A stretch of DNA of 17,974 bases from Nocardioides sp. (GTDB taxonomy: Bacteria > Actinomycetota > Actinomycetes > Propionibacteriales > Nocardioidaceae): the NCBI GenBank assembly GCA_021166815.1, contig JAJPEO010000150.1, forward strand, positions 1 to 17,974. Direction: 5' to 3'. The translations under genes were made by a program, and so were the position numbers. Below are positions 5,493 through 17,974 of the stretch, piece after piece. The notes under the pieces are model-generated. The model saw only the letters and a list, made by a program, of their open reading frames with translations, searched no databases and was not told the DNA's origin. The number at the start of each line of letters is the position of its first letter. The first letter of the stretch is position 1.

Positions 5493-5518
5493 AAAAAACC
5501 CCTCAGCACAGAGGGGTT
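5493..5518 (-). terminator. Rho-independent terminator/attenuator in the leuS leader
   Basis: On the minus strand, an 8-bp stem AACCCCTC/GAGGGGTT with a 6-nt loop is followed by six U. This is a textbook intrinsic terminator located only about 33 bp upstream of the leuS start codon, with leuS transcribed through it. A terminator in this place makes sense only if it is conditional. Confidence 0.8.
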
Positions 5519-5519
5519 G

Positions 5520-5554
5520 CCGCGTGACTCTCAAGGATCGGTGAGTCAGCGCGG
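5520..5554 (-). promoter_or_regulatory. 11-bp leader hairpin overlapping the leader-peptide stop codon
   Basis: The arms CCGCG-c-TGACTC and GAGTCACGCGG pair over 11 bp with one bulged C and a 12-nt loop. The UGA stop of the leader ORF is inside the 5' arm, so a ribosome at the stop would melt this stem, whereas one stalled at the Leu codons would not. It ends one base before the terminator stem. I could not find, by eye, a third segment that pairs alternatively with the terminator, so the switch mechanism is unresolved. Confidence 0.6.
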
Positions 5555-5584
5555 CTGGCCAAGGAGCAGGAACTGCGACTGCAT
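5546..5584 (-). CDS. Candidate leucine leader peptide of leuS (12 aa)
   Basis: A 12-codon ORF, MQSQFLLLGQPR, lies between the leuS promoter and the terminator. It carries three adjacent leucine codons of three kinds (CTG, CTC, CTT). An in-frame upstream ATG would give 15 residues (MGPMQSQFLLLGQPR). The TAGGAT box 7 nt before the ATG implies that the transcript starts at the ATG itself, so the peptide would be translated from a leaderless RNA. If the upstream ATG is used instead, AGGA could act as a weak ribosome binding site only for the downstream ATG. Ribosome-mediated attenuation with Leu-rich leaders is known for leucine biosynthesis operons, including leuA in actinobacteria. By analogy, ribosome stalling on uncharged tRNA-Leu would favour leuS expression. 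The assignment is inferred from position, codon content and the flanking hairpins. Confidence 0.6.
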   Translation of the reverse strand: MQSQFLLLGQPR

Positions 5585-5591
5585 GGGTCCC

Positions 5592-5597
5592 ATCCTA
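5592..5597 (-). promoter_or_regulatory. Putative -10 element (TAGGAT) of the leuS leader
   Basis: TAGGAT on the minus strand lies 7 nt before the leader-peptide ATG and downstream of the DUF4870 terminator, exactly where a dedicated leuS promoter is required. The -35 region is not recognisable. Confidence 0.5.
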
Positions 5598-8908: not shown

Positions 8909-8911
8909 TTG

Positions 8912-8984
8912 TGGAGCTGAGGGGACTCGAACCCCTGACCCTCTGCATGCCATGCAGATGCGCTACCAGCTGCGCCACAGCCCC
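8912..8984 (-). tRNA. tRNA-Ala (anticodon GGC)
   Basis: The 73-nt cloverleaf is read on the minus strand. The acceptor is GGGGCTG/CAGCTCC with the G3-U70 wobble that is the main identity element of tRNA-Ala. The anticodon stem TCTGC/GCAGA encloses the loop ATGGCAT, giving anticodon GGC (codon GCC). The T arm contains GGTTCGAGTCC. The CCA end is not encoded; the next bases are CAAG. The likely -10 is TAATGT at 9031-9036, about 46 bp upstream, with TTCACC near 9055-9060 as a weak -35. A small GCCC-gaaa-GGGC hairpin lies in the 5' leader. Confidence 0.97.
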
Positions 8985-14652: not shown

Positions 14653-17600
14653 CTACGGCCTGACCACCACGGACCCGGTCGCGGGCAGCACGGTCGGCGA
14701 GCCGAGGTACTTCACCACGACGGTGTACTTGCGCGCCTTCGGCAGCTTGTCGAGCGTGCGGGTGATCCGACCCCCGCACTCGACCGGCGGCTTGACGGTC
14801 TGGACGATCCGCGAGCCCACCTTGACCGTGATCCAGGCGCGGCCGTTGCACTGGCCGACCCCGTCCAGGGTGGAGACGAGCGCCCGCACCTGCAGGGAGC
14901 GCGTACGGGACAGGTACTTCGCGCGTACGGCCACCTTCGCCCGGGCCCGCAGCACGCGCACGGTCGCCGTGGCGAAGCTGGGCGTCAGGACCTGGTCGTC
15001 GGTGGGGACGAACGTCGCGGACACGACCGTGTCACCCGCCACCAGCGTGGGGAGCTGGGCGGAGGCGAGGCCGTTGACCACCGGCGCCACGACGGTCGAC
15101 CAGCCGGCGCTGAAGCGCACGGTGCCCGCGGCGTTGCCGCCCGTCACCGTGGCGGACACCGCGATCGTCTTGCCGAGGTTGACCCCGGTCGTGGGCACCT
15201 GCAGGCGAGTCGTCGTCACCGTCGGAGCGATCCGGAGGGGCTTGACCGTGAGGGTGCTGGCTTCCGAGGAGCTCGTGACGTGGTTGCTCGACGGGAGGTA
15301 CGTCGCCACCACGGGGTGGCTGCCCACGGCGAGCGGGGGCAGGCTGACGGTCGCTCCGCCGGCGGTGAGCGGCGCGGAGATCGTCCGGCCGTCGACCAGC
15401 ACCTCCACGACGCCGCTCGGGACGCCCGAGCCCGCCGCCACCCGGACGACGGCCGAGGTCGCGTCACCCAGGTAGACCGACTCCGACGAGAGCGTCAGCG
15501 TGGTCGTGGTGACCGACGCCGCAGCCCGCACGACGAGCATGGCGCTGCCCGTGCTGGCCCCGTGGAGGGAGCCTGCCTGGGGGACGTAGGTCGCGCTCAC
15601 GGTGTGGGTGCCCGACGCCAGGCTGTCCGGCAGCTGGACCGAGACGTTGCCGGAGGCGTCGAGCGGACCGCTGAGCGTGGTCCCGGCCACGGAGAACTCG
15701 ACGGTGCCCTCGGGCGTCCCCAACTCGCCGCGGACCGAGGCGGTGGCCGTGGGGGCCTGCCCGGGGTCGACCGTGTCGGGCGTGAGCGTCACCGCGGTGA
15801 GGGTGCGTACGGCCTCCTGCGCCGAGACGACCAGCGCCCGTGCGGCCGACGTGCTGCCGGCCTGTGCCGAGGGGTCGGTCGGCTGGAACTGCGCGGTGAC
15901 CGAGTACACGCCGGATGACAGCGGCGGGAGCGTCGCGGAGGCCCGCCCGCCGTCCACCGCAGCCGTCTTGCTGATGCCGAGCGGCGCCACCACGAACCGC
16001 ACCTGGCCCTGGGGCGAGGCGACACCGGTGACCGCGGCGGAGACGACCACGGACTCACCGACCACCGCGGCGGACGGCGAGACGCCGAGAGCCGTCTGGG
16101 TCTCCGAGGCGGCGGCGGTCGCCGTCACCGTCAGCGTCCGCAGTGCCGAGCTGCTGGGCGCCTGGCTGGTGGGGTCGGTCGGCGTGAACCGGGCCTGCAC
16201 GTCGTGGTCCCCGGGCTCGAGGTCGCCCGGCAGGTCCAGACGGGCCACGCCCGCCGCCACGGGCACCGCGGACCCCAGGTCGGCCCCGTCGAGGCTGAAC
16301 TGGACCGATCCCAGCGCCGCGCCGCCGTCGGCGGAGACGACCGCCGTGGCCCGTACGACGGTGCCGACCACGGCCCGGTTGGTCGCCAGCGTCAGGCCGG
16401 TGGCCGTGGAGGCGGCCTTGCTGCCCGCGACGCTCAGGATCGCCGAGGCGCTGCTCGCCTTCTGCTCCAGGGGCTGGGCGGGGACGAACGCCGCTGCGAC
16501 CGTCTCGGTCCCGGCCGAGGTCGGGGTGAAGGTCCACGTCGCGATCCGGTCCACCACGGAGGTGGAGAGGGTCTGCGCGCCCGCGGTGAACGTCATCGTC
16601 CCCTGCGGGGCTCCGGCACTCGACGAGACCGACGCGGTGACGGTGACCGGCTGGCCCACCAGCACGCTGGAGGGCGAGAGCTGGACGTACGTGTAGGTGG
16701 TGGCCGCCTCGCGCAGGACCGACAGCCGGACGGGTGCCGAGGTGCTGGCCGCGAACACGGCCGCGTCGTCGGGGACGAACCGTGCGACGACGTCGTGCTC
16801 GCCGATGCCGAGCGCAGGCAGGACCGCCTGTGCCGCGCCGGCCGACACGCGTGCCTCCACGGAACGTCCGTCGACGGTGAAGACGACCTTGCCGAGGGGC
16901 GAGGCGCTGTCGGCGGCGACCGTGGCGCGGGCCGTGATCGGGGTGCCCTGCGACACCGTGGCGGAGTCGAGGGCCAGCGAGGTGCTCGTGGCGGTCGCCG
17001 TGGTGGGGGCTGCCATGGTCACCATGACGGGGTCGGACTGGCTGGAGCGCGCGACACCGGTGCCGGAGGGGACGAACTCCGCGATCACCTGGTGCTGTCC
17101 GACCGCCATGGCCGGGAGCGTGGTGACGGCGGTGCCGCCGCCGACCGGCTCGGTGGAGACCTCCGAGCCGTCGACGAGGAACCGCACCGACCCGGTGACC
17201 CCGTCCGGGGTGACCGTGGCGGTCGCCTGGAGGGCGTCACCGGACGTCCCCGAGGTGGCGGAGAGCGCGAGCGAGGTGGTGGTGTCGACCAGCGTGATGG
17301 TGAGCGGGACGTTGGCGGAGGTGCTCGCACCGTACGTCGTGTCCGTGGGCTGGAAGCGGGCGCTGACCTGGTAGGTGCCGGCGACGAGCTGGGGCAGCTC
17401 GGCGGTGGCCACGCCACCGGTCACCGTCCCGGTGACGGTACGCCCGTCGACGGTGAAGGTGACGGTGCCGGCCAGGTTGCCTGGGCTGACCGCCGCCGAG
17501 GCCATCACGCGTTGCAGGGCGTTCGCCGAGGTGGGCGACAGGGTCAGCGTCGTGGTGGTCGGCGATGCCGGCGGGGTGATGGTGAGGGTGACCGGGTCCG

Positions 17601-17974
17601 ACGCGCTCGCGGCGTAGGCGGCCGGGTTGCCCGGAGTGAACCGGGCGACGACCTGGTGGTCCCCGGGCGCCAGGGCGCTGATGGCCAGCGTGTTGACGAC
17701 GGCTCGGCCGGAGACGACCGGCGCGGCACCGATCTCGGTGGCGCCGACGAAGAACTTCACGTCGCCGGCAGCGCCGGCCGGGGCGACCGTGGCGGTTCCC
17801 CGCACGGTGTCGCCGGCCGCGGCCGTGGTGCGCGACAGGGTCAGCGCGGTCGTGGTCGCCGTGGCGGGCGCGGAGACCGTGAGCAGCTCCATGGGCGAGG
17901 TGCTCGGCAGGTACTGCGCGGTGTTGGTCGGGACGAAGGACGCGGTGACGGCGTAGTCACCCTGCGGCATCGCC
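14653..17974 (-). CDS. Tandem Ig-like (Big_3-type) repeat protein, N-terminus beyond window
   Basis: The frame is open from the right edge to a TAG at 14653, about 1,106 residues. It contains one partial and ten full repeats of about 95 residues. Each opens with TTTxLTLS, followed by a GTVxFxVDG strand, an LPxLxxGxHxVxAxFxP strand, and a Ser/Ala-rich closing strand. This is the bacterial Ig-like domain 3/5 pattern of secreted or surface beta-sandwich proteins. The last 92 residues form a different domain with two cysteines (CNGRAW and ECGG, 24 apart), which could form a disulphide, and it ends in SVVVRP. No LPXTG, membrane anchor or SLH motif closes the protein, so attachment, if any, lies N-terminal. 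The repeats are divergent in DNA, which argues for old duplications. It may be an adhesin, a matrix protein or a spacer stalk; nothing in view identifies a ligand or enzyme. Confidence 0.9.
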   Translation of the reverse strand, partial: AMPQGDYAVTASFVPTNTAQYLPSTSPMELLTVSAPATATTTALTLSRTTAAAGDTVRGTATVAPAGAAGDVKFFVGATEIGAAPVVSGRAVVNTLAISALAPGDHQVVARFTPGNPAAYAASASDPVTLTITPPASPTTTTLTLSPTSANALQRVMASAAVSPGNLAGTVTFTVDGRTVTGTVTGGVATAELPQLVAGTYQVSARFQPTDTTYGASTSANVPLTITLVDTTTSLALSATSGTSGDALQATATVTPDGVTGSVRFLVDGSEVSTEPVGGGTAVTTLPAMAVGQHQVIAEFVPSGTGVARSSQSDPVMVTMAAPTTATATSTSLALDSATVSQGTPITARATVAADSASPLGKVVFTVDGRSVEARVSAGAAQAVLPALGIGEHDVVARFVPDDAAVFAASTSAPVRLSVLREAATTYTYVQLSPSSVLVGQPVTVTASVSSSAGAPQGTMTFTAGAQTLSTSVVDRIATWTFTPTSAGTETVAAAFVPAQPLEQKASSASAILSVAGSKAASTATGLTLATNRAVVGTVVRATAVVSADGGAALGSVQFSLDGADLGSAVPVAAGVARLDLPGDLEPGDHDVQARFTPTDPTSQAPSSSALRTLTVTATAAASETQTALGVSPSAAVVGESVVVSAAVTGVASPQGQVRFVVAPLGISKTAAVDGGRASATLPPLSSGVYSVTAQFQPTDPSAQAGSTSAARALVVSAQEAVRTLTAVTLTPDTVDPGQAPTATASVRGELGTPEGTVEFSVAGTTLSGPLDASGNVSVQLPDSLASGTHTVSATYVPQAGSLHGASTGSAMLVVRAAASVTTTTLTLSSESVYLGDATSAVVRVAAGSGVPSGVVEVLVDGRTISAPLTAGGATVSLPPLAVGSHPVVATYLPSSNHVTSSSEASTLTVKPLRIAPTVTTTRLQVPTTGVNLGKTIAVSATVTGGNAAGTVRFSAGWSTVVAPVVNGLASAQLPTLVAGDTVVSATFVPTDDQVLTPSFATATVRVLRARAKVAVRAKYLSRTRSLQVRALVSTLDGVGQCNGRAWITVKVGSRIVQTVKPPVECGGRITRTLDKLPKARKYTVVVKYLGSPTVLPATGSVVVRP

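Follow-up and report, generated by a model that had tools for sequence, protein, structure and literature searches.

Attenuators of the trp type, as in Escherichia coli, combine regulatory codons and a terminator, the position of the ribosome serving as the signal. In actinobacteria, attenuators before leuS were predicted for Streptomyces avermitilis and S. coelicolor in 2005 (PMC1262725), and LeuL2 (MRAVRLLLSEPR), a leaderless leader peptide of S. lividans TK24, was reported in 2021 (PMC8079986). The LEU element of actinobacterial leuA is described as a leader peptide with a leucine codon run which pairs near the start of the downstream gene, at its Shine-Dalgarno region (PMC1262725). Mutants of the Corynebacterium glutamicum ilvBNC leader led to the proposal of an antiterminator hairpin which adjoins the terminator and overlaps it by three bases (PMC11857589).

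The element described here lies before leuS in a 17,974-nt stretch of Nocardioides sp. DNA (the window). With the trp type it shares a leader peptide carrying cognate codons (Leu for leuS, and Ile for cimA in the version treated below), whereas an antiterminator pairing which excludes the terminator was not found in the leuS leaders. The leucine run is a likeness to the LEU element. With the ilvBNC / ilvB-II motif of Corynebacterium, as presented in PMC11857589 and PMC10272879, it has in common the control codons (CUU and GUA in that motif), a hairpin directly before the terminator and, probably, a leader ORF close to the transcript start (one nt away in Corynebacterium). The adjoining antiterminator proposed for C. 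glutamicum also has the same polarity as the model put forward below. In contrast, ilvBNC control is exerted on ilvB and involves three hairpins, the antiterminator sharing bases with the terminator, while leuS leaders of the window type have only two stems, overlapping by at most one base. A peptide attenuator on leuS had been regarded as less familiar in the original prediction for this DNA; it is less unfamiliar than that, since the Streptomyces cases were already published (PMC1262725, PMC8079986), one of them with a 12-codon leaderless LLL..PR* peptide.

Architecture of the leader upstream of leuS

Based on sequence inspection and folding, a -10 box, a short leader ORF, a hairpin (H1) and a U6-tailed intrinsic terminator were identified in this order upstream of leuS (Table 1). 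These are the four elements, in the order, that had originally been predicted with the strand unnamed. The terminator agreed with its description; the hairpin, described as 11 bp long with the stop codon in its 5' arm, was found to have the stop codon at that place but to consist of 12 bp with one bulged C. Zero nucleotides separate the end of H1 from the start of the terminator stem.

Table 1. Features of the leuS leader region in the window
Feature	Position	Strand	Basis and remarks
GC-rich hairpin with T-rich tail, end of upstream DUF4870 gene	5665-5618	-	Sequence
-10 promoter box TAGGAT	5597-5592	-	Sequence; 7 nt to leader ATG
Leader ORF MQSQFLLLGQPR*, 12 codons + TGA	5584-5546	-	Sequence; ATG at 5584, TGA at 5548-5546; probably leaderless
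Regulatory Leu codons CTG CTC CTT	5569-5561	-	Sequence
Hairpin H1	5555-5519	-	Fold; 5' arm 5555-5543, 3' arm 5530-5519
Intrinsic terminator	5518-5493	-	Fold; stem 5518-5511/5504-5497, U6 5498-5493
Shine-Dalgarno sequence AGGAG of leuS	5470-5466	-	Sequence
leuS, leucyl-tRNA synthetase, putative controlled gene	5460-2935	-	TIGR00396, 901 bits; editing domain PF13603 present

The combination of a TAnnnT box followed after 6-7 nt by a short ORF with three adjacent Leu codons was found once in the window, at the leader itself; in 200 first-order Markov sequences of equal length it averaged 0.005. The region 5556-5493 folds at -35.1 kcal/mol (z -6.06), and none of 200 shuffles was as low. To judge from the spacing of the -10 box, the transcript of the window would be leaderless. 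The gene upstream of the leader encodes a DUF4870 protein (PF09685), and the hairpin at its end, which adjoins the leader promoter, is likely its terminator; the leader therefore probably has a promoter of its own.

Distribution of the leader and relation to Streptomyces leuL2

The first set of relatives comprised leuS loci from 30 of 39 genomes. In 29 of the 30 loci, the window included, a TAnnnT box is followed at leaderless spacing by a short ORF containing a Leu run; the leader was absent upstream of leuS only at locus L013. There the likely GTG start of leuS comes six nt after a TATCCT box, and leuS itself may therefore be leaderless in this relative. A covariance model of the 29 leaders (R1), of which the window is part, gave the window element a score of 75.9 bits.

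Matches to R1 of at least 59.8 bits were found in 101 of 118 sampled genomes of the genus (a count that excludes a 44.5-bit match in genome G253), and seven of the 118 had no match at E 0.1. Coding sequence of leuS lay downstream in all 61 newly fetched matches of the genus, which comprise 21 of 30 given loci (nine were repeats) and 40 of 51 further places. In the sample of the order and class, which comprised 60 leuS upstream regions (about eight of the 60 from the same genus), 26 matched R1 and 34 did not; the 60 regions were fetched by LeuRS match, with about two dozen further leuS places left out. For 25 places among L032-L091, where the fetched sequence held just 39 nt of leuS, the check for downstream coding sequence was positive in none, but these places had themselves been picked by LeuRS match. 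Across the class, R1 matched at E 1e-4 or better in 150 of 296 genomes, weaker matches being taken by score alone.

For comparison of the layout, 114 of 115 leaders were parsed, of which 78 are non-redundant; L038 was dropped with a hairpin outside the limits of the script, and the partial L083 was left out. The TAnnnT box lies 6-7 nt before the start in all 114, the parse itself having demanded a box at 3-9 nt. A Leu run is present in every one, ending in CTT (102 leaders) or CTC (12). The gap between H1 and the terminator measures -1 to 3 nt throughout, so the two share at most one boundary base, though the span of H1 ranges from 25 to 50 nt. In 108 leaders the stop codon falls within -2 to +8 nt of the base of H1, and in the other six it is found 12-26 nt past it. 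The leaders show one of two layouts: in one, TAG stands immediately before CCGCG; in the other, CAG CCG CGC TGA, the arm is kept and the stop is moved. A role of the QPR* ending as a peptide signal was rejected, as other leaders have TAG for CAG and retain CCGCG as the arm of H1.

In an alignment of 101 leaders, seven of the 13 modelled pairs vary on both sides (three of six in H1, four of seven in the terminator). Pairing cells amounted to 99.5% over the 13 pairs, above all 500 shuffles, and to 99.8% in H1, figures favoured by an alignment fitted to the model and drawn from related, not independent, sequences. Thus the Leu codons, leaderless spacing, both stems and U run all recur in relatives, with compensatory changes in both stems, and the leucine-responsive leader-peptide attenuator proposed in the original prediction gains support from the comparison. 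Judged from these sequences, the element is very probably a ribosome-mediated transcription attenuator of leuS that responds to leucine.

The relation to Streptomyces was examined with a second covariance model (R2), built from 26 leaders (24 Streptomyces and two unclassified Actinobacteria) with the window excluded. R2 scored the window element at 37.7 bits (E 2.3e-10) and, searched against the whole genome of the window, found it as the sole match at E up to 1 (E 3.7e-8). The window also has the Leu-run ORF before leuS and the hairpin followed by a U-tailed terminator that characterize the Streptomyces type. By this model, its leader ORF is homologous to LeuL2 of S. lividans. Named genomes were scanned with a codon-blind pattern of the arms of H1 and the terminator, giving at least 118 matches. 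Among the 80 matches listed, LeuRS coding sequence lay downstream in 74 and a Leu-run ORF at leaderless spacing was present in 76; the named Streptomyces among them encode exactly MRAVRLLLSEPR in 21 of 29 cases, the other eight differing at one or two residues. The kind is thus already in print, and the leuS attenuator described so far in Streptomyces is extended here to Nocardioides-type genomes. Streptomyces leuL2 and the window leader share a 12-codon Leu-run ORF of leaderless type ending in PR*, the hairpin, the U-tailed terminator and leuS behind them; the Streptomyces set differs in its longer H1.

The synthetases behind these leaders fall into different lineages. Streptomyces LeuRS is divergent, being about 37-40% identical to that of the window, although both belong to TIGR00396. 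The same leader precedes a lineage about 60-82% identical to the window protein, in Nocardioides and others, and a second one about 34-41% identical to it, in Streptomyces and Intrasporangiaceae. Another LeuRS-like gene, shorter and with a Leu-run leader of its own, lies 0.2-4.2 kb after leuS in four genomes belonging to one family (L031:4400-4509 and L326-L329); the leader of L327 is without a U-tailed terminator, and the second gene of L326 has no match to the editing domain PF13603.

Ile and Leu/Val leaders upstream of cimA and ilvB

Weaker R1 matches within the genus were read at 12 loci, of which six lie before cimA (citramalate synthase) and six before ilvB, gene identity being assigned by the downstream protein with a profile check for one cimA and one ilvB. 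In a set of 30 cimA loci (L178-L207) picked by protein match alone (40 genomes searched, 36 with a match), the same layout with an Ile run was present in 28 and absent at L199 and L207; L130 and L133 are further cimA loci with this layout. These leaders read ATC ATC ATT, one codon, then TAG together with the arm of H1, the hairpin and the terminator. A codon-blind hairpin search recovered an abutting hairpin and terminator in 23 of the 30 loci, and in all 23 they are preceded by at least two Ile codons. The draft genome of the window (89.7% complete, 400 contigs) gave no cimA protein match.

The design of the leuS leader is therefore common to an Ile version on cimA, which is new here; a literature search found no report of a cimA attenuator. 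The exchange of Leu for Ile codons between leuS and cimA amounts to a natural experiment favouring sensing of the cognate amino acid.

A Leu/Val run was found before ilvB at all six loci read and in the genome of the window. The latter leader (L123; C82:6992-7112, minus strand, 24.7 bits) reads ATC CTT CTT GTA and stands before the gene for the large subunit of acetolactate synthase.

The final regulatory codon is usually a rare synonym and the first a common one. Thus CTT, which usually ends the run before leuS, accounts for 7 of the 2016 Leu codons counted in 30 leuS sequences, and ATT, the final Ile codon in 26 of the 28 cimA leaders, for 2 of the 467 Ile codons sampled in cimA. The run ends in GTA in the ilvB leaders (the six and that of the window genome), and GTA makes up 33 of 2287 Val codons in the 30 leuS sequences.

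Ribosome position, H1 and the terminator

The effect of the ribosome was modelled by folding of free RNA masked as far as 12 nt beyond the first base of the A-site codon, an assumed footprint whose mask upstream of the front edge is too strict for the six leaders with a stop codon 12-26 nt past the base of H1. With no ribosome, and with the ribosome at Leu1, Leu2, Leu3 (the last three codons of the run) and the stop codon, H1 folded in 113, 114, 111, 36 and 0 of the 114 leaders, and the terminator in 112, 114, 114, 114 and 114, respectively. Under this footprint the position of the ribosome decides H1 and leaves the terminator unaffected; H1 must therefore influence the terminator by some means that does not involve shared pairs.

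The best explanation is probably an attenuator of leuS in which H1 serves as an abutting antiterminator. Given sufficient Leu-tRNA, the ribosome would pass the Leu codons and come to rest on the stop codon, covering the 5' arm of H1; H1 would be blocked, the terminator would close and transcription would stop before leuS. With Leu-tRNA scarce, the ribosome would stall at the first or second Leu codon with its front edge short of H1, H1 would fold and hinder closure of the terminator stem inside RNA polymerase, and leuS would be transcribed. Such hindrance could come from the direct fusion of H1 to the base of the terminator stem, hardly any base being shared; that fusion obstructs closure within the polymerase is held with slightly less than even confidence. 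In free RNA, H1 and the terminator fold together, which counts against mutual exclusion, so that exclusion inside the polymerase is assumed. Also against the explanation, H1 is opened in most leaders if the ribosome halts at the last Leu codon, 34 of the 60 leuS upstream regions of the order and class did not match R1, and changed regulatory codons before S. coelicolor ilvB are described as without effect (PMC1262725). It is possible, though doubtful, that the rare last codon slows even a well-supplied ribosome at the point where H1 is held open. A switch of fused helices would, if proved, be a new variant. A tentative wider reading is a leaderless actinobacterial attenuator family on leuS (Leu), cimA (Ile) and ilvB (Leu/Val), in which no base pairs would compete, a terminator-fused hairpin would obstruct closure within the polymerase, the presence of that hairpin would depend solely on where the ribosome is, and the rare last codon would serve as a timer. 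The missing antiterminator, fused helices and rare last codon make the actinobacterial mechanism testable with few reporters.

The main rival, clearly less probable, is shielding by the stalled ribosome: H1 would serve only to bring the ribosome close to the terminator, and the ribosome, standing next to folded H1 at a distance of a few nucleotides, would prevent the terminator from folding or push the polymerase, the terminator acting by default where there is no translation. The last Leu codon, H1 and the terminator follow one another at nearly fixed distances although H1 varies in length, which is in keeping with such shielding; on the assumed footprint, however, a ribosome at Leu1 or Leu2 barely touches the base of H1 with its edge. 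Of the two, the reading of H1 as antiterminator is preferred.

A classical attenuator, with a stall-dependent antiterminator pairing with one arm of the terminator, is unlikely, although the Streptomyces leuS attenuators are called classical and are given an antiterminator by their authors (PMC1262725). The position L6 of the H1 5' arm and position -5 of the terminator 3' arm are complementary in 90% of leaders against 72% expected, but this cross pair is isolated and was read as the result of relatedness and of two terminator registers in the alignment. Wherever the ribosome was placed, 112-114 of the 114 leaders retained the terminator with a probability above 0.5. As antiterminator partners, the H1 loop and the H1 3' arm were rejected with no gain over shuffles; mean z for antiterminator pairing was 0.56, 0.04 and 0.15 in 78 leaders, negative values being better than shuffles. 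Pairing of the Leu run with the terminator is not judgeable by covariation, as the codons hardly vary. The pairing of CUCCUU with the terminator 3' arm GAGGGG, noticed by eye, was set aside; it is not possible with the Ile codons and the GAGAGG arm present in most cimA leaders. No convincing antiterminator was thus found in the leuS leaders by folding and covariation; the remark in the original prediction that no classical one is visible holds after folding, covariation and shuffle tests.

Similarly improbable is a second, translational layer, in which the Leu run of the read-through RNA would pair beyond the terminator near the leuS start. In the window the run pairs with the region 5485-5476 at -17.0 kcal/mol, also in the full-length fold. 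Averaged over 78 leaders, pairing between a leader's own segments is stronger by 0.82 kcal/mol (se 0.24) than with swapped ones and by 0.90 kcal/mol (se 0.26) than with shuffled ones. Own pairs beat swapped ones in only 47 of the 78, with relatedness not corrected, and any purine-rich Shine-Dalgarno region would favour such pairing. A plain terminator with a chance or unused small ORF is highly improbable in view of the conservation, the Leu/Ile swap and the 0.005 such ORFs expected by chance. A T-box was rejected, as none of five weak Rfam matches around the leader is a T-box. Above the gathering score, Rfam gave only a tRNA in the window and nothing in the leader loci L123, L130, L131, L208, L002 and L185.

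Elsewhere on the minus strand of the window are a tRNA-Ala with anticodon GGC (8911-8984) and a gene for a 1105-residue protein with ten Big_3_5 Ig-like repeats (14653-17970; PF16640).
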